From positions 1 to 64,000 of the forward strand of contig JAJYJH010000007.1 in NCBI GenBank assembly GCA_021789695.1: a DNA stretch of 64,000 bases, in the 5' to 3' direction. Both the position numbers and the translations under genes were made by a program. This document shows, one piece after another, positions 896-15,256 of this stretch; position 1 is the first letter of the stretch; the number at the start of each line of letters is the position of its first letter. Under the pieces are notes generated by a model that made no database searches, was not told the origin of the DNA, and saw only the letters and a program-made list of their open reading frames with translations. The stretch is from a bacterium (GTDB lineage: Bacteria > Elusimicrobiota > Elusimicrobia > Elusimicrobiales > UBA9959).

Positions 896-2632
896 GTGAA
901 AATAACACTGATCTACCCGCCTTCAGACTGCCTGAACTGCGAGTGCTTCAACCTGCCCAACTTGTCGCTACCGGTCCTGGCCGGCCACCTGCGCGGCCTC
1001 GGCCACGAGGTGCGCATGGCCGACCTGGACGACCCGTTCCACCGCGCGGTGCGCCCGGCCAACCCCGGAGTGGATTTCTCCATACTCGCGCACCCGGACA
1101 AGACCTCCGCTTTCCTCAAAGGCCGCCTCAAGGGGCCGGAGGCGGCCCTGCTGAAGCGCATAGCCGGGCTCCTCGCCGACACGCCGGCGCTTAAAGAGAA
1201 GACCGACCTTTACGGCCTGACCCTCGCCGGCTTCAAGATGAACGCCTTCCTGCTGAACGCCGTCGGGCTCCTGGCCTGGCGGCTCAAGCAGCTGAACCCG
1301 GCGGCGCCGGCGGTGGTCGGCTACAGCGGCGTCTCCCGCGAGGTGTACCACGGCCTCCTCGAGAAATACCACTCGCTCGATTTCGCCGTCTACTCCGGAG
1401 GCGGGCCGCATTTGGCGCGCCTGGCCGACTACGTGCGCAAAGGCCCGGGTTCCGGCGGGCTTCTCTCCACGCTGGAGCGGCGCGGCCGGAAGATAATAGA
1501 CCACGCCGCGCACATACCCGACGAGCTGTCCCGGCCGGATTACGCGGGTTACCCGCTGGAAGGCTATAAAGTGAGCGCCGAACAGCTGCTCGCCCGCTAT
1601 TCCCCGGACGTCCCGTTCAAGGCGGACCTCCTCAAGCGCGCCGGCCCGGGCAAACAGCTGGTGCTGATGTACCGCTTCGAGACCACCTGCCGCGGCCGCT
1701 GCGCCTTCTGCGGCAACGACGGGCGCAGCCCGGCGGCGCCGCCGGACGCGGCGCAGGTCGTGGAGGACCTCGAGCGCATGAAGGCCCTCGGCGCCACCGG
1801 CGTCTACTTCATCAACCCCAATTTCAACAACCGCTACGCTTTCGCCGACGAGCTCTGCGGCAAGATGATAAAGCGCGGCCTGGACCTGCTCTGGTGCGAC
1901 TGCGTAAATTTCCGGGAACTGGACAAGCCGCTGCTGCGCAAGATGCGCGCGGCCGGGGCCGTCAAACTGACCTTCGGCATGGAGACGGGGAGCCCCAGGA
2001 TGCTGCGCTACATCCGCAAGGGCGTGCTGCCGCCGAAGATAGAGGAATGCCTGAAGATCTCCCACGAGCTCGGCATCTGGAACCACATCGAGCTGATCGG
2101 CGGCCTGCCCACCGAAACGGAAGCCGACATCGGCGAGACCGTCTCGTTCCTAAGGCGCAACGCCGCGCACATAGACGCCTACTCCATAAACCCGTTCTTT
2201 CTCTACTCGACCTCGCCGTTCGGACGCGAGCCGAAGAAATTCGGGCTGCGTCTGCGCCGCGCGGCCCCCGGAACCGAGATGGACCTCTTCTCGGCGGTGG
2301 AGACCCCCAACAACTTCTCCGAGAAGTTCGACGAGATAAGCGGCCTGACGTTCGAGCAGAAGGACGCCCAGATACGGCGTTCCACCCGGATACTCGCGGA
2401 AACGGTCAAGGAAGTGGCCTCCGAGAGAGCGATAGATTTCGAGCATATCCATCTGTTGATGTACCTCTACTCCATTTTCGGCCACGGCAGGAAGGACCTG
2501 ATCCGCCGTATCTTCGGCCTGCTGACGCGCAGGTTCAAGCCGTACAACCTCGACGAGTTCCTTTCCTCGGTGCACTTCCGCAAGCACGACTACGACAGGG
2601 TGCTGAAGGCAAAGAAGGAGGGCCGGGGCTAG
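896..2632 (+). CDS. B12-binding-type radical SAM protein
   Basis: 578-residue radical-SAM enzyme with an N-terminal segment of the cobalamin-binding (Rossmann-like) type: KITLIYPP followed by LPVLAGHLRGLGHEV, residues about 1-150. The [4Fe-4S] motif is Cys265-x3-Cys269-x2-Cys272 (TTCRGRCAFC). Later come the typical elongator-like segments FGMETGSPRMLRYIRKG and ELIGGLPTETE. I chose GTG 896 because GGAG sits 8 bases upstream and MKITLIYPP is the usual family start. The gene is followed 14 bases later by a second radical-SAM gene and points towards the Hxs-like operon on the other strand. The substrate is unknown; a methylation or other peptide modification linked to that operon is possible but unproven. 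Confidence 0.8.
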   Translation: MKITLIYPPSDCLNCECFNLPNLSLPVLAGHLRGLGHEVRMADLDDPFHRAVRPANPGVDFSILAHPDKTSAFLKGRLKGPEAALLKRIAGLLADTPALKEKTDLYGLTLAGFKMNAFLLNAVGLLAWRLKQLNPAAPAVVGYSGVSREVYHGLLEKYHSLDFAVYSGGGPHLARLADYVRKGPGSGGLLSTLERRGRKIIDHAAHIPDELSRPDYAGYPLEGYKVSAEQLLARYSPDVPFKADLLKRAGPGKQLVLMYRFETTCRGRCAFCGNDGRSPAAPPDAAQVVEDLERMKALGATGVYFINPNFNNRYAFADELCGKMIKRGLDLLWCDCVNFRELDKPLLRKMRAAGAVKLTFGMETGSPRMLRYIRKGVLPPKIEECLKISHELGIWNHIELIGGLPTETEADIGETVSFLRRNAAHIDAYSINPFFLYSTSPFGREPKKFGLRLRRAAPGTEMDLFSAVETPNNFSEKFDEISGLTFEQKDAQIRRSTRILAETVKEVASERAIDFEHIHLLMYLYSIFGHGRKDLIRRIFGLLTRRFKPYNLDEFLSSVHFRKHDYDRVLKAKKEGRG

Positions 2633-2646
2633 CGCCCGGCGCCGTC

Positions 2647-3600
2647 ATGAAAGAACCGGTGTCCCGCCGCAGGCTGTACGGGGAAGCCAAGATAGGCGGC
2701 ATGGCCGACGTGCCGGTCATCCGCATCACCAGCGCCTGCAACCACAAGTGCGTGTTCTGCTCCGCGCCACATACGCCGGTCTACCCCCGGGCGGTCTCCA
2801 GGAAGATCATAGACCGGCACCGCGACACGATCTCAATAGAGGGCGGTGAGCCGACGCTCTCCAAGGACCTGGCGGACTGGGTGAGGTACGCCAAAAAAAA
2901 GAACTGCCGGGACATCATTGTCTGCACCAACGCAGCGCGCATGGGGGACGGCGCCTACGTGCGGGAGCTGCTGGACGCCGGCGTAACTTTGTTCAACGTC
3001 AACTTCCCGGCCCACACCGCGGCGCTCTACGACCGCTTCACCGGCACGCGCGGCCAGTTCCGGAGCAGGGTGGAGGCGTTGCGCAACCTGCTGCGTCTGG
3101 CCGGCCCCCGCGGCGTCCGCATAACGCTGGTGGTGCACTCCGGCATAGTCGGGCAACTGCCGGCCTACGCCGGCTTCGTGGCCAGTACCTTCCCCGGCCT
3201 CTTCTACCTGGAGCTGAACCTGGCGAAGGTGCTCGGCAACGTGGTGGACAGGACGGCGCTTGTCCCGCGCCTGGGCGCGCTGGAGCCCTACCTGGCCGGG
3301 GCGCTGAGGGTACTCTCCTTCGCGAAGGTGGGGTTCATAACGGACGGGTTCCCGCTGTGCCGCCTGCCGGGCTACGAGACCTCCTCCATAGACGTGTACA
3401 AGAAACTCAACGGCATAGAAGAGTTCCTGTCGGAGAAGCGGCACAGCCCGCGCTGCGAGAACTGCTCGCTGCTGAGCCTCTGCGCCGGGCCACGGGCGGA
3501 CTACCTGGAATTGTACGGGGATTCCGAGCTGAAGCCCTCCAAGGCCGATCCGGCCGCCATACTGGCCACCGGCCGCAAGGCAGGGTTCCTGCGGTTCTAG
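2647..3600 (+). CDS. Radical SAM protein with C-terminal SPASM/twitch-like cysteines
   Basis: 317-residue radical-SAM protein. The cluster motif is Cys31-x3-Cys35-x2-Cys38 (ACNHKCVFC), and IEGGEPTLSKD is the GGEP motif. The C-terminus has PLCRLPGYE and RCENCSLLSLCAGPRADY, cysteines that could bind an auxiliary cluster. The tail CxxC...CAG-x-RADYxxxYGxxExKP closely resembles that of the protein at 7482-8492, so the two are probably paralogues. It begins 14 bases after the B12-type radical-SAM gene and ends 7 bases before the convergent protease-like gene, so both arms of the cluster meet here. Target unknown; peptide maturation is inferred from context. Confidence 0.75.
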   Translation: MKEPVSRRRLYGEAKIGGMADVPVIRITSACNHKCVFCSAPHTPVYPRAVSRKIIDRHRDTISIEGGEPTLSKDLADWVRYAKKKNCRDIIVCTNAARMGDGAYVRELLDAGVTLFNVNFPAHTAALYDRFTGTRGQFRSRVEALRNLLRLAGPRGVRITLVVHSGIVGQLPAYAGFVASTFPGLFYLELNLAKVLGNVVDRTALVPRLGALEPYLAGALRVLSFAKVGFITDGFPLCRLPGYETSSIDVYKKLNGIEEFLSEKRHSPRCENCSLLSLCAGPRADYLELYGDSELKPSKADPAAILATGRKAGFLRF

Positions 3601-3607
3601 GCCGGCG

Positions 3608-4819
3608 TCACCACAGCCCCAGCCTTCTGAGCACGGTGAAGAGATTGCCGTCGAAGGCCAGCTGGAAAAGGCAGCCGGCGAAGATCCAGACGGCGAAGGC
3701 CTCGCCCTTCATTATCTCTATCTTCGGGTTCTCGCGCGGAATGCGCGTCACCCATTCCCGAAGCAGCTCGGTCTCTTCCGGGCTTATGCCGTCCCTGAAC
3801 GAGTCCTCGAAGGCGTCCTTGAAGTACGCGTCCCTTCTGACTATCTGCGCGTACCTGGAAGAAAGTATCATGCCGGGCTCCAGCTCGGCGGCGGAAACCT
3901 CCACCATGCTGAACCTCTCCATCAGGTAGACCAGCGCGAACCGCCCCACCCCCAGTATCACGCCGAACCGCAGCACGTCAAGGGCCGCGTACCTGACGTT
4001 CTGGAGCAACTGCCCCTTGAAATAGAACAGGCCGGCCAGCAGGTACGCGGGGTAGAAGAAAGTCAGGAAGCGCCTGAACCCCGGCCTGGAAAAATACCGG
4101 GAGAGCTTGTCCCAGCCTATGAACATCGCGAAGTAGAGCAGCTCGGGGTCCGGGACCAGCCGCTGCAGCCGCCCGGCGAAGCCGTAATTGGCAAGCTGGC
4201 GCACGAAAAAGACGGCCAGGACGGCCAGGACGTTCAGCGCCAGCTTCCAGGCGCTGCCGCCGCCGACGCCGCGCAGCCTGCCGGCGGCGTCCTTCTTTAT
4301 CTCGGCCCAGCGCGTCAGCGTACGGCCGTCCCTTTCCCTCCAGGCGCGGTAGAGACCGGCGAGGAACCTGAAACTGTAGTAAAGACCGGCGATCAGGAAG
4401 GAATTTATCAGCACCGAAAGCCAGAGCATCCCCGGAAAGCCCCTGATCCGGTAGTTCATCAGCGGCAGCAACGCCAGGCTGGTCATAAAAAACTTGGCGT
4501 CTCCGGCCGGCCAGATCTCCGCGTACCAGAGGAAGATCCCGACCGCGAAGGAGAGCGCCAGGTTCGTCGCGAAAGCGTAATAGAACCTGCTGCCGACGTA
4601 GTCCGACGAAGCGCCGGCCGCGCCAAGCGCGGTCTCCGCCGCGTACAGCGCCAGGAACAGCAGCAGCGCCTTCAGCCCGGCCACAATCATCTTGTTGGGG
4701 ATCTTCTTAAACCTGAGATCGTTGACCACGATTTTCCAACCCCACCAGAGGAAGAAGAGCAGCAGGGCGGCCCGGTAGGCCGTCAACCTGTGAAACAGCA
4801 GCGCGAGGTCGCGGGTCAT
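3608..4819 (-). CDS. Prepilin peptidase-like (A24) intramembrane aspartyl protease
   Basis: 403-residue polytopic membrane protein. The first helix runs into VVNDLRFKKIPN (Asp34) and a later helix into EIWPAGDAKFF (Asp107). These match the two catalytic aspartates of A24 prepilin peptidases (D after TM1, and the GxGD-K region), although the first glycine of GxGD is Pro-Ala here. No N-methyltransferase domain with zinc cysteines is seen. After residue about 125 there are more hydrophobic segments and a cytoplasmic-looking tail that is not typical of PilD. It is the last gene of the 12-gene minus-strand operon, 25 bases after its neighbour. I infer a role in cutting a leader or signal anchor of a product of the operon. 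A pilin-specific enzyme is the alternative, but no pilins are nearby. Confidence 0.65.
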   Translation of the reverse strand: MTRDLALLFHRLTAYRAALLLFFLWWGWKIVVNDLRFKKIPNKMIVAGLKALLLFLALYAAETALGAAGASSDYVGSRFYYAFATNLALSFAVGIFLWYAEIWPAGDAKFFMTSLALLPLMNYRIRGFPGMLWLSVLINSFLIAGLYYSFRFLAGLYRAWRERDGRTLTRWAEIKKDAAGRLRGVGGGSAWKLALNVLAVLAVFFVRQLANYGFAGRLQRLVPDPELLYFAMFIGWDKLSRYFSRPGFRRFLTFFYPAYLLAGLFYFKGQLLQNVRYAALDVLRFGVILGVGRFALVYLMERFSMVEVSAAELEPGMILSSRYAQIVRRDAYFKDAFEDSFRDGISPEETELLREWVTRIPRENPKIEIMKGEAFAVWIFAGCLFQLAFDGNLFTVLRRLGLW

Positions 4820-4844
4820 GATAGCGTGGACGGGACAGGGCGCG

Positions 4845-5702
4845 TCACAGGAAATAGACCTCCGAGAAACGCCCGTCCCTGCGCATCGATACTACGTTCT
4901 TCCTGCCGCCGACGGCGCCTATCCTTTTCAGCAGGGCGGCCCGCGGACCCGGAGGCGGCAGGAAGGAGCCGGAGGACTTCTTCGGCAGGAAATGAGTCTT
5001 TTCGTCCTCGCACGTCTTGCCTCCGGGATAAAGCCTGGTGACCCTGACGTAGTGGGCCGCGCCTTCCACGCGGTGGCGCCTTACAAACTTCCTCTCCTCC
5101 GGGCGAAGGCCGGCCCCGCCGTCGAAGGGTAACTTGGCGTATATCTTGAACGAGCGCGGGCCGTTCCGGAAGAAATCCGCGCCGAGGAACATCATGTTCT
5201 CGGCGGCGCGGTGTATGTAGTCCCAGTCCCCGCGACCGATCGTCCCGGCTATCAGCTTGGCCGTTCTGACGCTCACCTTCCTGAAGCAGAAATAGACGGT
5301 TATCTTCTCCACCGACGGGAGCGAGAAGCCCCATTCGGCGCTGACTATGGTGTGGGGGAAGACCATCCCGGTCCCCTCCACTCTCCGGACGAAATCCCGG
5401 AGGAAACCCGCGGAGGCGGGACCGAAGCCGGACAGTTCCATCAGCTCCAGCGCCCTGCCGGCGTAGAGCAGCCCGAGCTTCCTGCTGCGGCGCAACTCAG
5501 GGCGGTAATAGATATAGTGCACGAACCTCGCTCTGACCGGCGAATCGAACGGGATGGAACTTTCGTACTCCGAGATGCTGAGGTAACGGGAGTTCCTCTC
5601 GCAAACGGCCACCAGGTCCGAAGCGAGCCGCCGGCAGGCCTGCCCGGCCCCAAAAGCCTCCCCGAGGCGGCCGAGGCTGGTCAGCAGCTCCGGTCCGTTC
5701 AT
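4845..5702 (-). CDS. Unrecognised protein, possible ABBA-type prenyltransferase
   Basis: 285 residues, no signal peptide and no membrane helix. I chose ATG 5702, four codons inside the longest frame, because it forms an ATGA overlap with the stop of the PP-loop gene. I do not recognise the family with confidence. The alternation of hydrophobic strands with charged helices, and the pair ITVYFCFRKVS and FLGADFFRNGPRSFKIYAKLPF, recall the strand pattern of ABBA aromatic/cyanobactin prenyltransferases, which would fit a RiPP cluster. That is a weak resemblance by eye only. The C-terminal 60 residues are basic and proline-rich. It lies between the PP-loop ATPase and the protease gene in one operon. 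Confidence 0.45.
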   Translation of the reverse strand: MNGPELLTSLGRLGEAFGAGQACRRLASDLVAVCERNSRYLSISEYESSIPFDSPVRARFVHYIYYRPELRRSRKLGLLYAGRALELMELSGFGPASAGFLRDFVRRVEGTGMVFPHTIVSAEWGFSLPSVEKITVYFCFRKVSVRTAKLIAGTIGRGDWDYIHRAAENMMFLGADFFRNGPRSFKIYAKLPFDGGAGLRPEERKFVRRHRVEGAAHYVRVTRLYPGGKTCEDEKTHFLPKKSSGSFLPPPGPRAALLKRIGAVGGRKNVVSMRRDGRFSEVYFL

Positions 5703-6364
5703 CCCAGCTTCCACTCCAGCACTTCCAGGTGCCGTTCGCCGCCGGGCGTTTCCACCGGTCTGCTCTTCAGCACCTTCAATCTTCGCTTGAGGAGGGGCCC
5801 CTTCAGCACCAGCGTCTGGAAATCGAAATTATCGGGGTCCATCCCCTTCTTCTCCTGTTCTTCGAGATAGTTCATGAAGGCGCCGCCCGCGCGTTTGCCC
5901 AGAAAGCCCCTAGCCTCCATGCCCACAACTCTGGTTATCAGCATCTCGAGGCCATTCCGCAGAGCCTCCCTGAATGCGTCGGCGGGGCTGTCGCCAAGCA
6001 GCGGGTAGACGCAGGGCGTGCCGCGCACCTTTTTCGGGAACGCGCCGCTTCCGCCGGAGGGCCCGGAGAGGCCGATATAAAAGGCGCCAGGTTTTCCCGC
6101 TTTCACCGAAGCCGCGCGCAGCGCGCGGCCTATAAGGGAGGCTTCGTCCCTGAATTTGGAGACCTTCTGGACGTAAGGCTTGAGGCCCATTCCCGCCGCC
6201 AGTTCCCTGATCAGGCGCGGATTGCGGAAATCGTTGAAGAATCCGAAGTGCTTCTTCCCCCCGTCAAGGTACAGCAGTCCGGAGACTTCAGTCTTGTCCC
6301 CCAGGGCCCGCATCAGGGTCAGATGGCTGTCTTTCCCGCCGCTGAAAGCGACTATCGTTCTCAT
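5699..6364 (-). CDS. PP-loop ATPase, diphthine-ammonia ligase (Dph6/DUF71) family
   Basis: 221-residue adenine-nucleotide alpha-hydrolase type protein. The P-loop SGGKDS is at residues 8-13, right at the N-terminus as in Dph6-like enzymes, followed by the family-like sequence SGLLYLDGGKKHFGFF and the C-terminal half with PLLGDSPADAF and ITRVVGMEARGFLGK. Members activate a carboxylate with ATP to form an amide. In bacteria, which lack diphthamide, the substrate is generally unknown. AAGGAG lies 8 bases before the start. In this operon of peptide-modifying enzymes it is a candidate for amidating or ligating a group onto the precursor or a cofactor; this is inference. Confidence 0.75.
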   Translation of the reverse strand: MRTIVAFSGGKDSHLTLMRALGDKTEVSGLLYLDGGKKHFGFFNDFRNPRLIRELAAGMGLKPYVQKVSKFRDEASLIGRALRAASVKAGKPGAFYIGLSGPSGGSGAFPKKVRGTPCVYPLLGDSPADAFREALRNGLEMLITRVVGMEARGFLGKRAGGAFMNYLEEQEKKGMDPDNFDFQTLVLKGPLLKRRLKVLKSRPVETPGGERHLEVLEWKLG

Positions 6365-6400
6365 AGGAGCGTCTCCTTGCGCTGGCCCGGGCCGCGCGGC

Positions 6401-7489
6401 TCAGCCGCCATACGCGGCCTCCACCATGCCGTACACTGCCTTCACGTAGGCGAAATATCTTCCGTCCGAAGAGGACTTTTTAAGGAGCTCCTTGAAAAAG
6501 GCCTCCACCCTGCGCGTACGGTAGGCGTACGGGGCGTGGCCGTCGCTCAGGCCGCCGATGACGTAGTAGCCGGCCACGCACGAACCGCAGGCCTTCGACG
6601 GGAACGAGCAGTCCCGAAACCTCTTACGGAGGCCGCGGCGCGCGGCGCCTATCCTTATACGGCCTATATAGCGCCTGTAGTCCACGAAGCCGAAGGGATA
6701 GAGAGAATAGCTGCCGTCGGGGTAAAGTTCCAGGTCGCGGTAGAGCGGGCACGAGAACTTTTCTCGCGAGCCGGAACAGACCAGCATATCTAGGAAAGTC
6801 TCCAGGAAGACGAAATCCCCGGCCCGTATGCCACGCTCTATGTGGCGCAGCACCTTCTCTAAGCCATCGCGGAACAAGGCGAAGCTCTCCTCCGTCCAGC
6901 CATGCCCATGGACGCATTCCACGTCCACCACCCTGAAACCGGCCTTTACGACCTTCTTAAAGTCCCCGAGGACGGTGCCGGCCTTCTGCGGATGGACGCA
7001 GTAGAGCGCCACCAGGCTCTTCCCGGCCAAGGCTTCCGCGGCCAGGGCGCTCTTCCGCCTGACCGCGCCGTACGAACCGGCTCCGCCGGGGAAGACGCGC
7101 GTGTGGTCGTGCGCCTCTCGGCCGCCGGAGAAACTTATGGCGAGGCCGACGCCGTTCTCCCTCAGCCAGGCCAGTTTTTCCCCGTCGAGCGGCACGGCGC
7201 TGGTGGCCACGGTAATGAAAAGCTTTTTCCGGGCTTTCCCGTTGGCCTTCCTGGCGTAGGCGACTATCTCTTTGAGCAGCTGGTACCTAAGGAACGGCTC
7301 CCCCCCGTAGAGTTCCAGCCTCTTGCGCTCCCCCGGACTGGACAAGAAGAGGTCCACCGCGCGGGCCGCGTCCCCGAAACTCATGGTGAGCCCCAGGCCC
7401 TTGTCTATGAAACAATGCCTGCAGCGAAGCGCGCAGTCCGACGTGAGCGCCAGTTTGAGCTTTTGTATCTCCTTATTGAACTCAGGCAT
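6401..7489 (-). CDS. Radical SAM/SPASM-type protein
   Basis: 362 residues. Radical-SAM motif Cys19-x3-Cys23-x2-Cys26 (DCALRCRHC), followed by RLELYGGEPFLRY. The C-terminal part carries cysteines in FSCPLYRDLELYPDG and CSFPSKACGSCVAGYY, which fit a SPASM or twitch domain holding an auxiliary cluster. The start overlaps the stop of the preceding radical-SAM gene by 8 bases, so the two are translationally coupled. It is the fourth radical-SAM gene of the minus-strand operon. Substrate unknown; maturation of the HXS-repeat peptide or of another operon product is inferred. Confidence 0.75.
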   Translation of the reverse strand: MPEFNKEIQKLKLALTSDCALRCRHCFIDKGLGLTMSFGDAARAVDLFLSSPGERKRLELYGGEPFLRYQLLKEIVAYARKANGKARKKLFITVATSAVPLDGEKLAWLRENGVGLAISFSGGREAHDHTRVFPGGAGSYGAVRRKSALAAEALAGKSLVALYCVHPQKAGTVLGDFKKVVKAGFRVVDVECVHGHGWTEESFALFRDGLEKVLRHIERGIRAGDFVFLETFLDMLVCSGSREKFSCPLYRDLELYPDGSYSLYPFGFVDYRRYIGRIRIGAARRGLRKRFRDCSFPSKACGSCVAGYYVIGGLSDGHAPYAYRTRRVEAFFKELLKKSSSDGRYFAYVKAVYGMVEAAYGG

Positions 7490-8492
7490 AGTAGGGCTTC
7501 AGCGCGAAAGAGGAAGGCTTGACGCGCACCGGCTTGAACTCCTCCTCCCCGTAGCGCTGGGCGTAGGCCCGCTCGAAGCCGGCGCAGACCCTGCAATAGG
7601 CGCAACTCCGGCATTTGACGGACTTCATCCTCAGGCGCTCGGTAACCATGGTGTACATGCGCCCCACGTGCGTCTCCTCGGGCAGGAACAGGTCGTCGTC
7701 GTTCTCCGGCAGTTCCCAGTCCTTCATCAGGTTGGCGTGCCCTGGCATCAGGCAGGGCAGGTAATTGCTCAAAAACCGGAACGCAGGCCTCACGCCGCTG
7801 GCGGCGAAGACCTCCACAGCTTCGCGCACGTAGGGGACCTGCTCCGAGTACCGGGCCACCAGCCGCCCGAGCTGGTGCTCAGCCGCCCCCATGCAGTGCG
7901 TGGCAATCAGGTGTATGGAATCGGTCGGAAAGCTTTCCAGCACGAACCCCACGAAGGCTGGCAGGTCCTTGTAGTTCAGCGCTGTAACCGCGCTGTTGAC
8001 GTTAAGGTAGACGCCGAGGCCTGAAAGATTGTCGCAGGCCCGGCAGGCCTTAGCGAAAGAGCCCTTAACCCCGGTGACGGCGTCGTGCGCGGCGGCGGTG
8101 CGTCCCTGCAGCGAGATGCTGGCGGTGTTCAGACCGCTCTCCACGAGCTCGCGCGCGTAGGCGTGGTCCGCCAGTTTTATGCCGTTGGAGATCACCTGCA
8201 CGGCGGGATAGCCTATCTTCCTGGCCAGCCGTACGAGCCGCGGCAGCTCCTCGTAGACGGTGGGCTCGCCGCCGATGAACTGCACCATCCGGGAGCCGTT
8301 CTTGTAGGAGAGCAGCAGGCGGTCGGCGGCCTGTTTCAGGCGCAGGTCCGGGTGGCGGCGCCACTCCTCCATGTCCGGAGAACTGTAGCAGAAGACGCAC
8401 CTGGCGTTGCAGGAATAGTTCAAGGTCAGCTCGCAGACCTTCATGCGCGCCCGCGGCCAGCCGAACTTTTTTTCAGCTTCGCTCACTAACAT
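7482..8492 (-). CDS. Radical SAM protein with SPASM-like tail
   Basis: 336 residues starting at ATG 8492, which overlaps the stop of the upstream HxsB-like gene (TGATG). The frame continues upstream but only through the coding region of that gene. Motif Cys28-x3-Cys32-x2-Cys35 (SCNARCVFC), VQFIGGEPTVYEE, and a C-terminal CRSCAYCRVCAG followed by ERAYAQRYGEEEFKP. The tail and LPCLMPGH resemble the plus-strand protein at 2647-3600. In canonical Hxs systems the second maturase is HxsC, which I remember as having CNNxCxxCSQPP. That signature is not seen here, so I do not call this HxsC, though it could fill the same role. Confidence 0.75.
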   Translation of the reverse strand: MLVSEAEKKFGWPRARMKVCELTLNYSCNARCVFCYSSPDMEEWRRHPDLRLKQAADRLLLSYKNGSRMVQFIGGEPTVYEELPRLVRLARKIGYPAVQVISNGIKLADHAYARELVESGLNTASISLQGRTAAAHDAVTGVKGSFAKACRACDNLSGLGVYLNVNSAVTALNYKDLPAFVGFVLESFPTDSIHLIATHCMGAAEHQLGRLVARYSEQVPYVREAVEVFAASGVRPAFRFLSNYLPCLMPGHANLMKDWELPENDDDLFLPEETHVGRMYTMVTERLRMKSVKCRSCAYCRVCAGFERAYAQRYGEEEFKPVRVKPSSFALKPYYA

Positions 8493-9889
8493 CAGTCCAC
8501 TCCTTCCCTGAGCCAGACGCGGAAGATGCGGCTCCACCTGCGGTCCGTCTTCAGTCTCAGCACCAGCCCGAACATCCACTTGAAGAACCGGCAGCGGTCG
8601 CTGGAGGGCAGATCGCCCCAGAACGACCCCTGGAAAATATAGTTGTAGACCGGCGAGATTCTGCAGTAGTAGGCGTAGGGGCAGCGCGCGCAATACGGCT
8701 GGGACAGCTCGCCGAAACAGGACGCGATGAGAGCCCGGGCCAGCGGCTTCTCCAACACCCCGGAGAACGTGTCGCGTCGGACGTTGCCCAGCCTGAAGAA
8801 GTCGTCCCCGGAACAGGCCAGCATCCTGGCCTCGTCGGAAGGATAGATGTCGCCATTGTGGTCGTAGGCCAGCCTTATCAGCACCTCCAGATTGCGGTGC
8901 GGGTTCCTCTCCGCGGTCTCCGTCATCTTAAGGATGTTGAAAGCGCCCTTCTCGTATACGGCCCGGCCTTCGCGCAGCGTCAGCTCTCCCATACGCTCCA
9001 GCGCCCTGCGGTAGAAGGCGAAGTATTCCTCCGGAGTATAACCAAGCCCGGAGTTGCCGGAGGCGCGCCCAAGCGGGTCCAGCGGCCCCAGCTGTATGCG
9101 GTAAAGGCCGTTCTTCACGTAGGACTCCACCGTCTCTTCGGGATAGGGCAGCAGGGCACGCGTGACGGTACAGATAGCGTTCGGCGCTTCCATGGAAGAG
9201 CCGCGCGCGCGGCGCCTGCCGATCTCGCGCAGCCAGCCGGCCACCCTGTCGTAGTTGGAGCCGGCGCTGGAAACGCGGTTGGCGTCGTGCACGCGCCTGA
9301 CCGCGTCGAAAGAGGCGCAGACGGCCACTCCGTTGCTTTCCAGAAAATCCAGTTTTCCCTGGTCCATGTTCTGCAGGTTGGTAACGACGGAAAAATGCAG
9401 CCGCTTCCTCGCCCCGCGGTTAAGGCGTTTCGCCTTCTCCACGATATACTTCAGGACTCCGAAGTTAAGCAGCGGCTCGCCGCCCTGGAACTCCAGCGTG
9501 AGCCCTCCACCCCTTATAGAAAAAACGAAGGCCAGCAGCTTGTCGGCGGTGGCCCGGGTCATGTCCCGGCCTGGCGCGGAATTGGCGCTAGCCGAGCAGT
9601 AGGAGCAGTTCAGGCTGCACCTGTTGGTCAGCGTGACGATGTGTATGTACGGGCCGGCGTAGTCAGCGAAATAGCGGCCGCGCAGCCTTGCGCCCACGCC
9701 GTCCAGGTTCAGCCTGTTGGAGAAAAAATCGCTCCTTTCCAGCAGGGCGGACGTCCTCGGGGAGAGGTCCGGCCCCTGAAGAGCGCGTGAAGAGACGCCG
9801 GGAAGGAAAAAGACGCGGCCGGAGGAATTTGCCAGGAACATTCCTCCGGCCGTATTTTCAAAGGCTATGTCGAAGAGTTCGTTCTTCAT
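8492..9889 (-). CDS. HxsB-like radical SAM maturase (first paralogue)
   Basis: 465 residues. An N-terminal domain of about 80 residues (FENTAGGMFLANSSGRVFFL) probably binds the leader peptide. The radical-SAM motif is Cys91-x3-Cys95-x2-Cys98 (NRCSLNCSYC), with LTLEFQGGEPLLNF. The C-terminal SPASM-like region has PYCARCPYAYYCRISPVYNY, FQGSFWGDLPSS and DRC. The CPVYNY...QGS...G-x-(ML)PS signature is what I associate with HxsB of His-Xaa-Ser systems. It lies directly downstream of the HXS-repeat peptide gene. A paralogue is at 11564-13015; this copy has ISPVYNY instead of VCPVYNY, thus one cysteine fewer there. Confidence 0.85.
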   Translation of the reverse strand: MKNELFDIAFENTAGGMFLANSSGRVFFLPGVSSRALQGPDLSPRTSALLERSDFFSNRLNLDGVGARLRGRYFADYAGPYIHIVTLTNRCSLNCSYCSASANSAPGRDMTRATADKLLAFVFSIRGGGLTLEFQGGEPLLNFGVLKYIVEKAKRLNRGARKRLHFSVVTNLQNMDQGKLDFLESNGVAVCASFDAVRRVHDANRVSSAGSNYDRVAGWLREIGRRRARGSSMEAPNAICTVTRALLPYPEETVESYVKNGLYRIQLGPLDPLGRASGNSGLGYTPEEYFAFYRRALERMGELTLREGRAVYEKGAFNILKMTETAERNPHRNLEVLIRLAYDHNGDIYPSDEARMLACSGDDFFRLGNVRRDTFSGVLEKPLARALIASCFGELSQPYCARCPYAYYCRISPVYNYIFQGSFWGDLPSSDRCRFFKWMFGLVLRLKTDRRWSRIFRVWLREGVD

Positions 9890-9956
9890 CCACGAGCGCG
9901 CCGCACCGGCGCCCTGAACTGCGGCAGGAGCGGGGAGGCGCGAGACGGGCGCGGCG

Positions 9957-10235
9957 TCAGCACCACCCTCCCCTGGAATGGGAGCCGTGCGAACCGTGCG
10001 AGCCGTGGGAGCCGTGCGAACCGTGGGACGCGTGCGAACCGTGCGAACCGTGGCTGTAATGGCCAGTCTGGGCCGTGTAATTGGTATGCAGGACGTTCTG
10101 AGCCGAGAGGTCCTCGGTCATGGCGGCCCCTATGATGCCCAGGGCGATGGCGGTCTTTAGCACGTCGGAGTCCACCATCTTTCCCTCTTCGCTGCTGAGG
10201 AACTTCTTTATTTTCCCGTTTTCTTTCTTTGCCAT
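9957..10235 (-). CDS. hxsA: HXS-repeat precursor peptide (HxsA-like RiPP precursor)
   Basis: 92 residues from ATG 10235, with GAGGGG 7 bases upstream. An N-terminal part rich in Lys/Glu (KIKKFLSSEEGKM) leads into a hydrophobic stretch TAIALGIIGAAM and a linker. Then come nine consecutive His-Xaa-Ser triplets (HYS, HGS, HGS, HAS, five HGS), one His-Ser, and the terminus RGGWC. There is no other cysteine. The repeat is what defines HxsA peptides; HxsB/HxsC radical-SAM enzymes are predicted to modify them. At DNA level the repeats (about 9978-10057) use mixed Gly and Ser codons, so the amino-acid pattern, not just the DNA, is conserved. The gene lies between the Cys-rich protein and the HxsB-like gene. 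Confidence 0.88.
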   Translation of the reverse strand: MAKKENGKIKKFLSSEEGKMVDSDVLKTAIALGIIGAAMTEDLSAQNVLHTNYTAQTGHYSHGSHGSHASHGSHGSHGSHGSHGSHSRGGWC

Positions 10236-10248
10236 AATTTTCCCCTCG

Positions 10249-11283
10249 TCACTCTTTTTTCCCTGTCTGGCCCTTCCTGGCCTTCCTGATAGCGGAATCC
10301 AAAGCGTTCTGTTGCTGCGCTGTCCGCTCCACGAGCATGGCCTGGTCAGCGATGGGCTTGACCATGCAGTAATCCTGCAGCACGGCGGAGGCCAGCGGCT
10401 GGCACGAGCCGGCCGCCTTGTTGAGCAGGACCGCGGCAAACGGACTCAGGTCCTGCCCGGCGGAGGCGGGGTCTTTGGACCTGACCGCGCCGTAAAGGGT
10501 CCACATCCTGGAGCAGGAATCGTTCTTGCAGCCGTCCGCGCTCCTGGGGAAGGTCTCCAGGCACTTCGCGCGCACTTCGGCCGGCGCCTTGCCGCAGAAG
10601 TTATCGGAGATGGCCCTCAAGCCGCCTTTGGCTATTCCGCAGAAATAACTGTCGGACACAAACTTGTCCGCGCCTTTCAAGTTATAGTGGAAATAAGCGG
10701 CGCACAACGACATTCCGGACTTGCCCTGCGCGTATCCGACCAGTCCGGCCGGGTACAGGGTCTCTATGCAGGAGAGGCGCAGCGCCTGGCCGGCCATGTC
10801 GCGTTCTTTTGCCGATTTCGGGCAGAGATCCTTCCCCTGTACAAGAGACAGGCAGGCCTCATACTTCCCGGCCTTCTCGTAGAGCGCGTTTATGCGGGGC
10901 TCGCCTATGGCCTTTATGACGGCGTAGTTATTCATCTGCTCCATCACCTTGTCGCTCAGCACGTCCTGGGCTTTTGTGCCCTGCGGACATCCCTCCAGGT
11001 CCGCCGGCATCTTGGGAACCAAAGACTGGTCTATGTGCGCCGGCGGGACGGAGGGCGCGGCCGGCTGCGGGTAGGGGGCGCCGGCAGTGCCCGAGAGCGG
11101 CGCGGACATATCCCTGGCCGCCTCTGGGAGAGGCACTCCGACCTGCTGCGGCGGTTGCGGCACGGCCGCCTCCGTCTTCACGGCCTCGGCCGCCTCCCTG
11201 CTGGCCCGGACGGAAGTCCGGTACCGCACATAAAGGAGCCCGGCGAGCAACGCCACCGCCACCAATATCAGCGCTTTTTTCAT
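10249..11283 (-). CDS. Membrane-anchored protein with 12 cysteines, function unknown
   Basis: 344 residues from ATG 11283, which overlaps the stop of the hxsD gene. An N-terminal helix (ALILVAVALLAGLLYVRY) is followed by an Ala/Pro/Gln-rich linker to about residue 95 and then a 250-residue domain with twelve cysteines, an even number that suggests disulfides outside the cytoplasm. Segments such as DLCPK, LSCIETL and YFCGIAKG recur at intervals, so helical repeats are possible. I do not recognise the family. Located 13 bases upstream of the precursor gene and between Hxs components, it is likely to handle, anchor or receive the mature peptide; this is inference. Confidence 0.6.
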   Translation of the reverse strand: MKKALILVAVALLAGLLYVRYRTSVRASREAAEAVKTEAAVPQPPQQVGVPLPEAARDMSAPLSGTAGAPYPQPAAPSVPPAHIDQSLVPKMPADLEGCPQGTKAQDVLSDKVMEQMNNYAVIKAIGEPRINALYEKAGKYEACLSLVQGKDLCPKSAKERDMAGQALRLSCIETLYPAGLVGYAQGKSGMSLCAAYFHYNLKGADKFVSDSYFCGIAKGGLRAISDNFCGKAPAEVRAKCLETFPRSADGCKNDSCSRMWTLYGAVRSKDPASAGQDLSPFAAVLLNKAAGSCQPLASAVLQDYCMVKPIADQAMLVERTAQQQNALDSAIRKARKGQTGKKE

Positions 11284-11567
11284 CACGCCCCCTGTTTTTT
11301 CTGCCCCAGGGCCGAGACCAGCGCGTTGGCCAGTATCAGCTGAGAGGTTTTAAAGTTCTTCTTTACCAGATCTATCCGGCACTGCTGGTTCAAAGCTTCG
11401 TTCATGAACTCCCTGAACGCCGCCTCTGGGTTCCCGCCGGAGACCTCGACGCGCAGCCCGGATGATCCGTCCTTTACCTCTATGCGCGCGGCGCTCGAGA
11501 CGTTGGCCGCCAGGCGCAGGGCTTCGGCGGAATAAACGACACGGTCTACCATGAACTCTTTTTTCAT
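11283..11567 (-). CDS. hxsD: HxsD-like small protein (second copy in the operon)
   Basis: 94 residues. It starts at ATG 11567, overlapping the stop of the HxsB gene by four bases (ATGA), and its stop overlaps the start of the Cys-rich protein. The sequence pattern R-V-V-YSAEALRLAANV, a short beta pair (ARIEVKDGSSGLRVEV), then FREFMNEALNQQCRIDLVKKN and LILANALVSAL matches what I know of HxsD: an Ala-rich first helix and a C-terminal N-E-x-L-x-x-x-(R) ... LILAxA helix. HxsD function is unknown; its fold resembles a leader-binding accessory. A longer homologue is at 12993-13427. Confidence 0.78.
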   Translation of the reverse strand: MKKEFMVDRVVYSAEALRLAANVSSAARIEVKDGSSGLRVEVSGGNPEAAFREFMNEALNQQCRIDLVKKNFKTSQLILANALVSALGQKKQGA

Positions 11568-13015
11568 CTGCTTTCTCCGATTCCGGCCCATTTCTCCAAC
11601 ACCGGCCGGCTCTTGGCGTCCTGCAGCAGTCCGAACAGCAGGTCCAGCACGCCCGTCATCAGACGGCAGCGGTAATTTGAGGGCATCCGTCCCCAGATGC
11701 TGCCCTGGGTCTCGTAGTTGTAGACCGGGCAGACCCCGCAGTAGGGCTTGTAGGCGCACCTGAAGCAGAGCGGCTGGGACTCCAGGTTGGAAGAGGCGCA
11801 GACAGTCCTGGTGGTGGCGTTCGAGACCACGGCCTCGTACTTGTCGCGGACAGTACCGACCTTGAAGATGTCGTCTCCCAGCCAGCCGACCATGCGGCCC
11901 TCGTCGCAGGTATAGACGTCGCCGTTGTAGTTGTAGGCCAGCTGCCCGATGGAAGCTCCGCAAGGGCACCGCATGTCGAGGTAACCGGAATCCTTGTGCC
12001 CCAGCGCCTTCGTCAGCAGCAACTGCGCGAACTTCTCCTTTATCGGCGCGCCCGCCGCGCTTTTCTTGATGATGTAGCGCAGCGCCTCTTCGTAGAACTT
12101 CAGAAAATCCTCGGGAGCGTAGCCGATGATATCCCAATGCTTCTTGGCGTAGCCTATCGGCGCCAGCGGCCTGATAAAGATTTCCTCCAGCCCCAGGCCC
12201 AGGTACTCGTCCACGATGGCCCTGGCGGAGTCGAGCGACCGTTTCGAGACCGTGAGCAGCGCGCTGGGTTTGAAAACCCTGTATTTAAGCCCGTTCTGGG
12301 AATCGTGCCTGGCCTTGAAATACTTTATCCATTTGACAGTTTTTTTATGGGAATTGCCGCCGCCATACGTCCTGTTCCCGTTATGGATGGACTCGGGGCC
12401 GTCCAGCGAGGTACAGATGGAAACCTCGTTCTCCAGCAGAAACCGCGCCTTTTCCTCATCCATCAGGCTGAAGTTGGAAACCAGGGCGAGGGTGAGCTTC
12501 TTGCCGGTCTTCTTCTCCTTGAGCTTAGCGTATCTTACCGCTTCGCGGAGAACGCTCCAGTTGACCAGCGGCTCGCCGCCCTGGAACTCTATCGTAAGCG
12601 CGCTTCGCGGCGTCTGGAAGGCCAGGTCCACCGATTTTTTCGCCACGGCCGGGGACATATCCACGTTCCCGGATTTCTCTCCGACCACGGAGGACTGACA
12701 GTACAGGCACCTGTGATTGCACCGCAGCGTCATCACAAAAATATGCAGTCCGGTGCCGTGGAAAACGGAACCGTTAGCGGATTTCCACCTGGAGAACAAG
12801 GTCTCGAACCCGAGCCGGTCCTTCACGAACCCGCCGGCGACTAGAGCCTCGTAGGACTTGCCGGAGGCCAGCTTCCCCGAGCGGTACCTGCCAAACTCGT
12901 TGCGAGAAAGAAAGACATGGCCGCCGAAATCGTTGGTAAGAAGGACCCCGCCGGCGAGTTCGCGGAACCGGAAATCCGGGGCCTCGACGCTCTTACTTCC
13001 CTGTTTTTTTGCCAT
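11564..13015 (-). CDS. hxsB: HxsB radical SAM maturase (second paralogue, more canonical)
   Basis: 483 residues. N-terminal recognition-like domain (FRFRELAGGVLLTNDFGG), radical-SAM motif Cys99-x3-Cys103-x2-Cys106 (LRCNHRCLYC) and LTIEFQGGEPLVNW. The SPASM-type end has MRCPCGASIG, TCDEGRM, PLCFRCAYKPYCGVCPVYNY, then TQGSIWGRMPSNYRC. This matches the HxsB signature closely. It overlaps the upstream HxsD-like gene by 23 bases and the downstream hxsD by 4. Having two HxsB-type enzymes, each close to an HxsD or the precursor, is unusual and suggests two successive or different modifications. Confidence 0.88.
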   Translation of the reverse strand: MAKKQGSKSVEAPDFRFRELAGGVLLTNDFGGHVFLSRNEFGRYRSGKLASGKSYEALVAGGFVKDRLGFETLFSRWKSANGSVFHGTGLHIFVMTLRCNHRCLYCQSSVVGEKSGNVDMSPAVAKKSVDLAFQTPRSALTIEFQGGEPLVNWSVLREAVRYAKLKEKKTGKKLTLALVSNFSLMDEEKARFLLENEVSICTSLDGPESIHNGNRTYGGGNSHKKTVKWIKYFKARHDSQNGLKYRVFKPSALLTVSKRSLDSARAIVDEYLGLGLEEIFIRPLAPIGYAKKHWDIIGYAPEDFLKFYEEALRYIIKKSAAGAPIKEKFAQLLLTKALGHKDSGYLDMRCPCGASIGQLAYNYNGDVYTCDEGRMVGWLGDDIFKVGTVRDKYEAVVSNATTRTVCASSNLESQPLCFRCAYKPYCGVCPVYNYETQGSIWGRMPSNYRCRLMTGVLDLLFGLLQDAKSRPVLEKWAGIGESR

Positions 13016-13427
13016 ATTTCTGTTCCCAGGTCTTGGTTATGCCCCTCGGGTCCTCTTTTTTTATCTCGCTCTCGACCTGGGCTATCAGCTGTTCAAGTTC
13101 CTTCTCCTGCTCGGGAGTGAGCCCCACGTCATCGGCGCCGCTGATCTGCTCCGGGACGTGGTTTATCGCGCGCTTTATCATCCAGAAGCGAAGGTCCTTG
13201 TTCCTGTCGAACAGCCCCTCTCTGAACTTCTCGTCCTCCAGCTCGCGAAGGAAACGGCCCTTCAGGTCCGCGGTTTTACCGCCGTTCTTGGGAAGGAAAG
13301 AAACTTTTACCGAAGTTTTGGCGGAGCTCAATGTCACGTAAGCCGCCCCGCTCATCGCGTAGGCTGCGTATCTTATGGTTTCCAAAGAGAATTTTTTTCT
13401 GCCTACCAGGATATCTATGTTTTTCAA
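12993..13427 (-). CDS. HxsD-like protein with C-terminal extension
   Basis: 144 residues from TTG 13427 with a strong GGGAGGG five bases upstream; no ATG fits better. Residues 9-100 (RKKFSLETIRYAAYAMSGAAYVTL, beta pair, ELEDEKFREGLFDRN, FWMIKRAINHV) have the HxsD layout seen in the gene at 11283-11567. The last 45 residues are charged (EQEKELEQLIAQVESEIKKE) and probably helical. The gene is 42 bases after the first gene of the operon and overlaps the HxsB gene. It is probably an accessory or partner of that HxsB enzyme. Confidence 0.7.
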   Translation of the reverse strand: MKNIDILVGRKKFSLETIRYAAYAMSGAAYVTLSSAKTSVKVSFLPKNGGKTADLKGRFLRELEDEKFREGLFDRNKDLRFWMIKRAINHVPEQISGADDVGLTPEQEKELEQLIAQVESEIKKEDPRGITKTWEQKYGKKTGK

Positions 13428-13469
13428 AATCCCTCCCTAGTCCTTGATCCTTTCCCGGGCCGGCCGCCG

Positions 13470-14153
13470 CTAGTATATCCTGCAGCACAGCATGGTTCCG
13501 GCGGCGGGCACCGATGTGTTGCCCGCCACGCAGTAGCCGTTGTAAGCGCCTACGCAGGCCAACGCGCTGATGGAACTGGTATAGTTCACGTTCATCAGAT
13601 TCTCTCCGGCCGGGCAATAGGACCAGCCACCACTGCCCATCCCCACTGTCTGGCACAGGCCGGAGATGGTCATATTGGAGCCGGTTATAGTGGAGCCGTT
13701 GTTGGCGAGGTAAAGGTTGCCATACAGCCCCATCCACTGGTTGGCGTAGTTGATGAGCCGAACGTTATAGTCTCCCCCGCCGCCGTAATGGAAGTCTATG
13801 AAGGGGGTACCGCCGCCGTTCTGTCCGAGCTCGATGGAGCCGTTCTGGTCCGTGTTCAGCTGGGAGCCGGACCACTCTATTGCGCCGTTCACGTCCAGCG
13901 CGTAAGCCGGGTTGGGATTGGCGTTCCTTATCCCCACGCTGCCGCTGTCCCTGGCAAGGATGGTCTGGCCGGTGGTGAGGATGCTGACATACCCGCCGTA
14001 GGGCGCGGGGTAATACGTGGTAAGGGTGAGCGTTTCGGAACCTATAAAGCCAGGATGCCAGCAGAGGAAGAAAAGCGTCAGGAGCAGAAGCAGGCCCCTG
14101 CGGCCTAGCCGGGGAACAGGGACATGTATGATTATCTCTTTGACGTTATCCAT
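13470..14153 (-). CDS. Secreted Elusimicrobia-type protein (TTYYPAPYGGY motif), tail-fibre-like body
   Basis: 227 residues from ATG 14153 (AGGGGGGA upstream). One membrane segment at residues about 20-38 is followed by TTYYPAPYGGY at 45-55, which I remember from many Elusimicrobiota surface proteins. The body has SVGIRNANPNPAYALDVNGAIEW, a phrase typical of phage tail-fibre and surface-adhesin proteins, and Gly/Asn-rich beta segments. The end has cysteines (SGLCQ, SYCPAGENLMNVNYT, ALACVGAYNGYCVAG, MLCCRIY). First gene of the operon, so it may be an export partner or a second substrate of the Hxs-like enzymes. Its function is unknown. Confidence 0.65.
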   Translation of the reverse strand: MDNVKEIIIHVPVPRLGRRGLLLLLTLFFLCWHPGFIGSETLTLTTYYPAPYGGYVSILTTGQTILARDSGSVGIRNANPNPAYALDVNGAIEWSGSQLNTDQNGSIELGQNGGGTPFIDFHYGGGGDYNVRLINYANQWMGLYGNLYLANNGSTITGSNMTISGLCQTVGMGSGGWSYCPAGENLMNVNYTSSISALACVGAYNGYCVAGNTSVPAAGTMLCCRIY

Positions 14154-14223
14154 ATAGTCCCCCCTGATAAGCGTAGGACGACCGCAGCGCGGCATTAAAA
14201 CCCGGGCTGCCTTTTACTATATA

Positions 14224-14252
14224 ATTATAGCAGAAAAAGCGCGCCTTTTCAA
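14224..14252 (-). promoter_or_regulatory. Sigma-70-type promoter of the Hxs-like operon
   Basis: On the minus strand TTGAAA (14252-14247), a 17-base spacer and a perfect TATAAT (14229-14224). Transcription should begin near 14217 and leave a leader of about 64 bases before ATG 14153. No other promoter this good is seen inside the 12-gene run, in which gaps are at most 67 bases. Confidence 0.75.
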
Positions 14253-14277
14253 TGAAGCCGGACTGGCGCAGCGCTGC

Positions 14278-14664
14278 TCAAAGCAGGGCGATAACGAAAG
14301 GGACCCGGCACTTCTCTTCCAGGAAGGCTCTCGCGTCCTCAGCCACTTCCTCGAAGTCGCGCCTGTCCCTGGCGGAGGCGGAGAGGAAAGAGGCGGAGTT
14401 CTCCACCGCGAGCACGTATCCGGCGGCCGGGACCTCGTCCGGAAGGGAGCGCAGGCAGTCAAGCAGCGCGTCCCAGTTCCGGCCGAAATAGGCCGGGAAG
14501 CGGAAAGCCGAGGCCAACGCCTCCATAAGCTCCGCTTTGCCTGCTATCTTCCCGCCGTCGACGCGGGCAATAAAGAAACGGGGCGGAGGAAATCTCTTTA
14601 AGAGTTCCTCCGCCCCGCCGGGGCGCCCGAAATCCAGGAAAAGTCCTTCTTTCCCGGGCCCCAT
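14278..14664 (-). CDS. Barstar-family ribonuclease inhibitor
   Basis: 128 residues, no signal peptide, so cytoplasmic. The core DGGKIAGKAELMEALASAFRFPAYFGRNWDALLDCL matches barstar. Asp65 and Asp69 in NWDALLDCL correspond to the two aspartates of barstar that plug the barnase active site. It starts 4 bases after the stop of the secreted ribonuclease gene, so it is the immunity partner of that enzyme and is translated from the same mRNA. Confidence 0.88.
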   Translation of the reverse strand: MGPGKEGLFLDFGRPGGAEELLKRFPPPRFFIARVDGGKIAGKAELMEALASAFRFPAYFGRNWDALLDCLRSLPDEVPAAGYVLAVENSASFLSASARDRRDFEEVAEDARAFLEEKCRVPFVIALL

Positions 14665-14668
14665 CTGC

Positions 14669-15256
14669 TCAGTAAACTATCTGCAGTTGTATGAAGTGCC
14701 TATAGTGATCGGGCGTGTAATAGATCAACTGGCCGCCGCCAATTATGATGCGCTCGGCGCCGCGCGCGCTGAGAGCCGGGGCCACCGGGTAGGTGGTGTC
14801 TCCTATCACCACGGAACTGGCGCCGTCGCCTATGACCAGAGTGTATTCGTGGTAGTATCCCTTTGAAGCCTGCGGCAGCACTCCTTCCTTATTGGTGAAG
14901 ACGATGCCGTCGTGGGAGTATGGCAGGGAATCGCCGTTGTGTATCTTGGCGATGAGCTCCATTATTTTCTCCGCCCTGTTCTGGTCCTGTATAACGGGGG
15001 TAAGGGACGTGCCGGGGGCCGGAGCGCCGGAAGAAGAGCGCTCCGCGGCCGGGATTTGCATGGGCACCGGTTGCGCCGCGGGAACACTGACGTCGGCGGG
15101 GGCCGGGAGGTCCGCCAGTGTGTCGAAAACGTAATTGCCGCTCAGGCCGCTGATAGCGGTCAACTGCGATTTGTCGGACTGAGCCGAAACGGCTCCGGCG
15201 GACAGCAACATCAGGGCCGCGGCGACGTTCAACCAGATCGTTCTTTTTTTGAGCAT
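14669..15256 (-). CDS. Secreted guanyl-specific ribonuclease (RNase Sa/barnase family)
   Basis: 195 residues. Signal peptide (residues 1-26, ending AVSAQ), Ala/Pro/Ser-rich linker to about residue 90, then a microbial ribonuclease domain: IHNGDSLPYSHDGIVFTNKEGVLPQ, GYYHEYTL, GAERIIIGGG and YYTPDHYRHF. By comparison with RNase Sa the catalytic residues are Glu137 (YYHEY), Arg169 and His184 (DHY). All are present, so it should cut RNA 3' of guanosine. Exported by Sec, it could feed on or attack RNA outside the cytoplasm; the linked barstar protects the producer. AGGACATA precedes the ATG. Confidence 0.87.
   Translation of the reverse strand: MLKKRTIWLNVAAALMLLSAGAVSAQSDKSQLTAISGLSGNYVFDTLADLPAPADVSVPAAQPVPMQIPAAERSSSGAPAPGTSLTPVIQDQNRAEKIMELIAKIHNGDSLPYSHDGIVFTNKEGVLPQASKGYYHEYTLVIGDGASSVVIGDTTYPVAPALSARGAERIIIGGGQLIYYTPDHYRHFIQLQIVY

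Follow-up and report, generated by a model that had tools for sequence, protein, structure and literature searches.

An elaborated Hxs peptide operon in an Elusimicrobiota genome and its candidate prepilin-type leader protease

What does a bacterium make with a twelve-gene operon built around a peptide of His-Xaa-Ser (HxS) repeats, and which of the twelve products mature that peptide? The question is raised by a locus on contig JAJYJH010000007.1 of the Elusimicrobiota assembly GCA_021789695.1, of which a stretch of 64,000 nucleotides, hereafter the window, was analysed. A first description, made from the letters alone (the sequence-only reading), had proposed an enlarged Hxs system, in which radical S-adenosylmethionine (radical-SAM) enzymes act on an HxS-repeat precursor. 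The results presented here indicate that the operon probably makes and matures an HxsA4-type ribosomally synthesized and post-translationally modified peptide (RiPP), which would be modified at its HxS triplets, freed of its leader by the A24-like intramembrane protease g12, and exported. We infer the steps of this pathway from the genes (g1 to g12, Table 1), from the way they are ordered and conserved, from the purifying selection acting on them and from the families to which they are related.

The heart of the system was recognized by curated models, since both the precursor g6 and the maturase g3 score above the cut-offs of their families, HxsA4 (NF038313) and HxsB (TIGR03978). In the profile check with the HxsA, HxsB, HxsC and HxsD models g3 matches HxsB best, so the HxsB-like proteins are not claimed by unrelated families. 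Exactly nine HxS triplets were counted in g6, as had been claimed; they follow a leader with FLSSEEG/K, a hydrophobic segment and LSA/Q (slashes mark candidate cleavage points), and precede a C-terminal SRGGWC. Known Hxs systems had been described as small, and the canonical loci compared indeed have three to four genes and two radical-SAM enzymes, namely hxsA2-hxsD-hxsB-hxsC in Nostoc (p057_G, L195) and hxsA2-hxsB-hxsC in Acidiphilium (pACRY02, L194). These loci share with the window an exported HxS-repeat precursor, HxsB, an HxsC-type second radical-SAM enzyme and an HxsD-like helper. By contrast, the window holds a 12-gene operon in an island with 17 radical-SAM genes, and adds a SEE[G/A]K leader with an A24-like protease, a Cys-rich partner, a PP-loop ligase and a predicted prenyltransferase fold. 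The NF038313 and NF038332 (HxsC4) models cover single proteins, not the whole locus. Judged by its sequence, the locus is an elaborated version of the known Hxs peptide system, with HxsC- and HxsD-like proteins that fall below the curated cut-offs.

On the minus strand the twelve genes run from g1 to g12 (14153..3608) at the positions first described. Their successive junctions measure, 5' to 3', +42, -23, -4, -1, +13, +67, -1, -8, +36, -4 and +25 bases, which agrees with the overlaps of 1-23 bases and gaps of at most 67 bases reported before, the gaps proper being 13-67 bases. The promoter upstream of g1 was the best site in a scan of 13.6 kb (3300-16900) and the sole one above 9/12, among four promoter-like sites against 2.3 expected; it recurs as TTGAAA/TATAAC in G315, the closest relative with the same operon. 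In that genome all twelve genes lie in the same order on a contig of 56,092 bases, with identities of 87-99%. Tight junctions, a near-consensus promoter and an identical order in G315 support a single 12-gene operon. Between the two genomes, the ratio of nonsynonymous to synonymous substitution rates (dN/dS) ranges from 0.021 in the precursor g6, the most constrained gene, up to 0.228 in g11, ruling out chance or a frame artefact as the origin of the twelve open reading frames (ORFs). The A24, Cys-rich, PP-loop and radical-SAM genes recur near HxsB or HxsA4 in relatives, which is consistent with the several modifications and membrane-linked processing that the extra genes had been taken to imply; that these genes are peculiar to the window's genome was rejected. 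Only the extent of the locus needed revision: the operon does occupy 3608-14252, but the locus continues past both ends, the operon most likely being an arm of a larger island that spans about 45 kb.

The leader bears on how the peptide would be released. HxsA4 precursors in general open with a charged N-terminus and the motif F-L-x-S-E-E-[G/A]-K; a hydrophobic stretch follows, then a site resembling AxA and an HxS core, whose triplets are mostly HGS and whose C-termini include SRGGWC, GQW and GSY. In archaeal leaders of this type the equivalent position reads EEKGG, EENGR, EERGS or EETAK. Among 80 distinct leader motif stretches, the residue directly before the hydrophobic stretch was Gly in 74 and Ala in six. 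When the 116 HxS-repeat ORFs of all the DNA retrieved were compared, the motif was missing solely from three canonical HxsA2, one truncated ORF (present twice) and one antisense ORF (present three times); the search expression allowed G or A alone, yet every complete HxsA4-type precursor matched it. Gly or Ala ahead of a hydrophobic helix is a requirement of type IV prepilin-type (A24) proteases. The operon encodes a candidate, since g12 has the two aspartates expected of A24 proteases, D34 (in NDLRFKKIPN) and a GxGD-type D107, in 15/15 homologues, and both are kept in three proteins from DPANN archaea. Canonical HxsA2, in turn, has a plain Sec signal peptide without the Gly/Ala motif, and no annotated A24 gene was found within about 5 kb of it in the three canonical loci checked. 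Because of the Gly/Ala before the hydrophobic stretch, the conservation of both aspartates, and the lack of motif and nearby A24 gene in the case of HxsA2, g12 would be the protease that removes the HxsA4 leader. To our knowledge, a prepilin-type protease acting as a RiPP leader peptidase has not been described, and these findings suggest that one was recruited to that role. A single HxsA4 turned up in the window's genome; G315 contains a further HxsA4-g5-HxsB unit at a distance of about 30 kb.

The distribution of the protease points in the same direction. HxsB was found above cut-off in 90 of 341 Elusimicrobiota genomes, HxsA4 in 82 of those tabulated, and both together in 80. Strong matches to the g12 family occurred in 77 of the 341, 72 of which have HxsB, and where such a gene shares a contig with HxsB or HxsA4 it lies within 20 kb in 53/56 cases and within 5 kb in 41/56. 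A scan of 84,980 species genomes returned 76 g12-family loci, nearly all from Elusimicrobiota, 54 of them flanked by HxsB or HxsA4. Four came from DPANN archaea, and in three of these four HxsB (411-429 bits), HxsD-like and HxS-repeat genes were found near the protease. Since this first set had been selected by the protease, a reverse test was made on Diapherotrites loci chosen by HxsB: 14/17 contained an A24-like gene, mostly with HxsD-like and often with HxS-repeat genes, and two of the three remaining loci are contigs under 6 kb. By its distribution, the A24-like gene is a real, widespread partner of Hxs. The A24-like protease named in the sequence-only reading is therefore not a feature peculiar to this locus, and it is found also in archaea. 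Compact A24-HxsD-HxsB-HxsA loci were seen in Diapherotrites and other DPANN archaea (L216-L231, L184, L192), some with U32 proteins and merely four HxS triplets; this compact version could be reconstituted.

Several observations weigh against the pathway as proposed. The A24 family model PF01478 scores g12 below its cut-off (19.1 against 26.5 bits), although it is matched by 9/15 members of the g12 family (best 3.7e-6), and a sequence search of the PDB with the g12 profile returned no credible relative. The Fisher p-values of the co-occurrence (down to 1e-49) ignore shared ancestry, and 13/82 HxsA4 genomes, which are drafts, lack a strong A24-family match. To these are added the sub-threshold HxsC- and HxsD-like proteins and, for g11, the lack of any family in profile searches or credible sequence relative in the PDB, the few homologues and TM-scores of about 0.5. 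Finally, the HxsA4 leader also fits signal peptidase I, given that an AxA-like site precedes the core in those HxsA4 sequences that were examined. The A24-like protease could then serve a pilin-like or other membrane protein, such as g1, while signal peptidase I releases HxsA4, and the plain Sec signal peptide of canonical HxsA2 would fit that scheme. Nevertheless, A24 accompanies HxsB and HxsA4 into archaea, and leaders of the HxsA4 type show constraint at the Gly/Ala position, which canonical HxsA2 lacks; we regard this scheme as rather unlikely. Cleavage of the HxsA4 leader by g12 thus remains the preferred reading, with signal peptidase I at AxA as the main alternative, and both enzymes could act.

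In the pathway favoured here, HxsA4 would be made with a cytosolic leader, and its triplets would be modified by HxsB (g3), the HxsC-like g8, the HxsB-like g7 and the PapB-like g9, assisted by g2 and g4. Two HxsB-like and two HxsD-like genes had been predicted, and both pairs were recovered, the second HxsB-like protein and both HxsD-like proteins at scores under the cut-offs (Table 1). All six radical-SAM proteins of the window contain CxxxCxxC. The two further radical-SAM/SPASM genes noted earlier are both radical-SAM genes, although g8 is now read as an HxsC-type enzyme and g9 as nearest to PapB-type ranthipeptide maturases. HxsC and HxsC4 are the best families of g8 and of the neighbouring p2, even though g8 and p2 reach only 86.7 and 67.1 bits of the 267.9 set for HxsC, and g8 is not HxsC4 itself, whose cut-off is 500 bits. 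By these matches, g8 and p2 are divergent HxsC-like enzymes.

The chemistry can be proposed by analogy. The SPASM enzymes HaaB, ScaB and YhhB join C2 of His to the beta-carbon of residue i+2, and MscB joins Phe to the beta-carbon of Ser i+2 (PMC11002830). These triceptide enzymes likewise are SPASM-type radical-SAM proteins acting on aromatic-x-X triplets, with His and Ser among the partners (PMC11002830). HxsB forms a separate family, and the triceptide, or three-residue cyclophane-forming enzyme (3-CyFE), models YhhB, GrrM, FxsB and AmcB gave matches far below cut-off. The simplest guess, and the most likely chemistry by analogy with the known three-residue cyclophane enzymes, is a His-Ser link within each HxS, in which the His ring would be joined to the beta-carbon of the Ser two residues on.

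Further tailoring may be provided by g10 and g11. The Dph6-like PP-loop ATPase claimed for g10 was substantiated by a PF01902 match above cut-off and an SGGKDS loop, and the gene recurs in several relatives. The protein g11, first listed as unrecognised, indeed has no sequence family, but is now predicted to adopt an alpha-beta-beta-alpha (ABBA) prenyltransferase fold. Its AlphaFold2 model, built from four sequences, shows repeated ABBA units forming a barrel with the invariant Arg, Lys and Tyr on its strands. In a Foldseek search against the PDB (E 2.6e-6), all 47 matches with E<1e-3 were ABBA aromatic prenyltransferases, including CloQ, FAMD1, EpzP, AmbP1/3 and the peptide prenyltransferases PagF, PatF, PirF and LimF. 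The predicted fold is thus like that of the cyanobactin enzymes PagF, PatF and LimF, without detected sequence similarity. In a peptide substrate, LimF attaches a geranyl group to C2 of histidine (PMC11002830). From the model, g11 could plausibly prenylate HxsA4 at His, Tyr or the C-terminal Trp; the optional tailoring by g10 and g11 would have His or the C-terminal Trp as acceptor. Besides the two copies in the window's genome, the g11 gene was seen only in G315 and G176, in every case within an Hxs locus, and given the lack of sequence similarity, the TM-scores and the few homologues, g11 is accessory. Two ORFs in other HxsA4 loci (L183 2430-3203 and L017 866-2467) are borderline similar to it (E 0.38 and 0.002) and possibly of prenyltransferase fold.

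Since many relatives lack g10 and g11 and gene order downstream of HxsA4 varies, genes 8-12 might be passengers, a minimal g1-HxsD-HxsB-HxsD-g5-HxsA4 unit working alone. This is improbable in view of the overlaps of 1-8 bases that join g7/g8/g9 and g10/g11, the purifying selection, and the recurrence of HxsC-, PapB- and A24-type genes throughout the phylum.

The last steps of the pathway favoured here would take place at the membrane. After the hydrophobic segment enters it, g12 would cut the leader behind the conserved Gly/Ala (SEEG/K), a signal peptidase might cut once more ahead of the core, and the His-rich peptide would come to lie outside the cytoplasm beside the membrane-anchored g5 and the fibre-like g1, probably binding a metal or other ligand. 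The count of exactly 12 Cys in g5 confirmed the earlier claim; homologues of g5 adjoin HxsA4, and seven Cys are invariant across 16 sequences. Its AlphaFold2 model is helical (predicted local distance difference test, pLDDT, 79), with no fold match in a structure search of the PDB and no family in profile searches. The secreted protein claimed for g1 is read here as exported and fibre-like, conserved upstream of HxsD-HxsB; profile searches against Pfam and NCBIfam gave no family. Comparison with G315 fixed its start at 14153, behind GGGGGGAC, and a start at 14195 was dropped, that upstream ATG being out of frame in G315. The g1 stretch TTYYPAPYG was rejected as a general genome motif, with one match in the genome.

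A wider context is offered by nitrogenase paralogs. With higher-scoring nitrogenase-type proteins set aside, divergent NifH/NifDK paralogs are nearly confined to Hxs lineages (47/49 listed genomes have Hxs), and those sharing a contig with HxsB or HxsA4 lie within 20 kb in 23/31 cases and within 40 kb in 30/31. In relatives, NifH (220 bits in L098) was seen fused or adjacent to NifDK-like proteins in or beside Hxs clusters (L098 13138-16963, L062 4721-8507, L063 3388-5613). Such paralogs are said, in work by Meheust in 2020, to occur with 'an extensive suite of radical SAM proteins'. We infer that the Hxs-associated proteins are the group VI paralogs, whose loci occur in the same Elusimicrobia lineages, and the data suggest that the HxS peptide belongs to these loci. 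A putative tetrapyrrole cofactor is the role that PMC9391474, citing Meheust 2020, gives to group VI nifH homologues. The His-repeat peptide might accordingly scaffold or carry a group of tetrapyrrole or metal type, built by the many radical-SAM enzymes and, where relatives have them, by nitrogenase-like reductases, a view also favoured by the HxsC-like enzymes, which next to HxsC most resemble the heme-type AhbD/AhbC/NirJ. That resemblance is of a kind common among SPASM enzymes and scores far under the cut-offs, however, and the operon has no tetrapyrrole-biosynthesis gene. In addition, no PF00148 protein was found in the window's genome (95.7% complete), so the nitrogenase-like reductase is accessory rather than essential, and the conserved product is the HxS-repeat peptide. 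A peptide-borne or peptide-bound cofactor is therefore considered unlikely for this operon.

A broader and tentative proposal is that HxsA4 loci form a RiPP class of Elusimicrobiota and DPANN archaea with a dedicated prepilin-type leader protease, in which the His repeat would be the scaffold for an unprecedented set of radical-SAM enzymes and a peptide prenyltransferase, joined in relatives by nitrogenase-like reductases; the orphan Elusimicrobia nitrogenase-paralog loci would then yield a peptide-borne cofactor, not a free tetrapyrrole. In the literature searched Hxs peptides are named just in passing, and neither their chemistry nor their purpose was found. The conserved gene set of the locus is tractable and comes with a concrete pair of leader and protease and a predicted prenyltransferase; it also links Hxs to the unexplained nitrogenase-paralog loci of groundwater Elusimicrobiota.

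The operon is not the whole of the locus. On C25, another contig from this genome, lie eleven radical-SAM genes with CxxxCxxC, one of them a further HxsB, together with a second g10 copy (PF01902), a second g11 copy (59% identical), two PF01136 (U32) proteins with one weaker relative, and a flavodoxin-radical-SAM fusion. Along most of its length C25 aligns with contig C33 of G315 at about 3.5-29 kb (74-90% identity in longer blocks), although the local order differs and one gene is inverted. The C25-like part of C33 directly adjoins p1-p2 and the 12-gene operon as they stand in G315. Because C33 joins both, the window and C25 are, as read from these alignments, most likely parts of a single island that spans about 45 kb and holds 17 radical-SAM genes, most likely broken in this assembly at an insertion-sequence-like ORF (12-740), a remnant of an IS481/IS3-type transposase at the contig edge. 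A comparable gene set is contiguous over about 30 kb in G225. Duplication of a small cluster, considered for two HxsB matches 14-25 kb apart, was rejected, as G225 and G315 show one large island. U32-family proteins (L014 4547-5389, 9602-10414 and 10404-11177; two PF01136, one weaker) are repeatedly interspersed with the radical-SAM genes, both in the island and in its relatives, and a SufS-like aminotransferase class V protein (L048 13339-14586) closes many islands.

Table 1. Positions in the window of the operon genes, their promoter and adjacent genes
Feature	Positions	Strand	Evidence
g1, exported fibre-like protein (SETLTLTTYYPAPYGGY ... VGI ... C-terminal CC)	13470..14153	-	Conserved first gene upstream of HxsD-HxsB
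g2, HxsD-like, TTG start	12993..13427	-	TIGR03976 40 bits, nearly whole profile (5-87/90), cut-off 50
g3, HxsB radical-SAM/SPASM maturase	11564..13015	-	TIGR03978 478 bits, above 370; CxxxCxxC at residue 99
g4, second HxsD-like protein	11283..11567	-	TIGR03976 19.9 bits, weak; family kept in relatives
g5, membrane-anchored Cys-rich protein	10249..11283	-	12 Cys; adjoins HxsA4
g6, precursor HxsA4	9957..10235	-	NF038313 63 bits, above 55
g7, HxsB-like radical-SAM	8492..9889	-	TIGR03978 307 bits, below 370
g8, HxsC/HxsC4-like radical-SAM	7482..8492	-	NF038332 107.8 bits, TIGR03977 86.7 bits, both below cut-off
g9, PapB-like radical-SAM	6401..7489	-	NF047865 111 bits, below 340
g10, Dph6-like PP-loop ligase	5699..6364	-	PF01902 52.5 bits, above 23.2; AFSGGKDSH near N-terminus
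g11, predicted ABBA-fold (peptide) prenyltransferase	4845..5702	-	AlphaFold2 pLDDT 83.6, predicted TM-score (pTM) 0.84
g12, A24-like intramembrane aspartyl protease	3608..4819	-	D34 and WPAGD107 invariant in 15 homologues
Sigma-70-type promoter, TTGAAA-17-TATAAT, TG extended -10	14224..14252	-	11/12 matches; just upstream of g1
p1, radical-SAM related to B12-type families (radical-SAM part only)	806..2632	+	PhpK family 69.7 bits, far below cut-off; kept in relatives
p2, HxsC-like radical-SAM	2647..3600	+	Convergent with g12, 7-base gap; conserved in G315
Barstar-like inhibitor	14278..14664	-	PF01337 81.6 bits; syntenic upstream neighbour in relatives
Exported barnase-like ribonuclease	14669..15256	-	PF00545 49.9 bits; syntenic upstream neighbour

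Upstream of the operon, the ribonuclease and barstar genes, four bases apart, lie between PhoH and g1 and are syntenic with HxsD-HxsB across the family; p1, p2, barstar, ribonuclease and PhoH are also kept around the operon in G315. The pair and the modified peptide could form a single antibacterial toxin-immunity weapon, given that synteny and that precursor and ribonuclease both look exported. We hold this to be very improbable, since a strong promoter separates barstar from g1 and the pair was not seen in the f7 and f8 loci examined, nor in archaea, where Hxs persists. Between PhoH and a BamA-like gene lies an IS30-like transposase (16847-17812).

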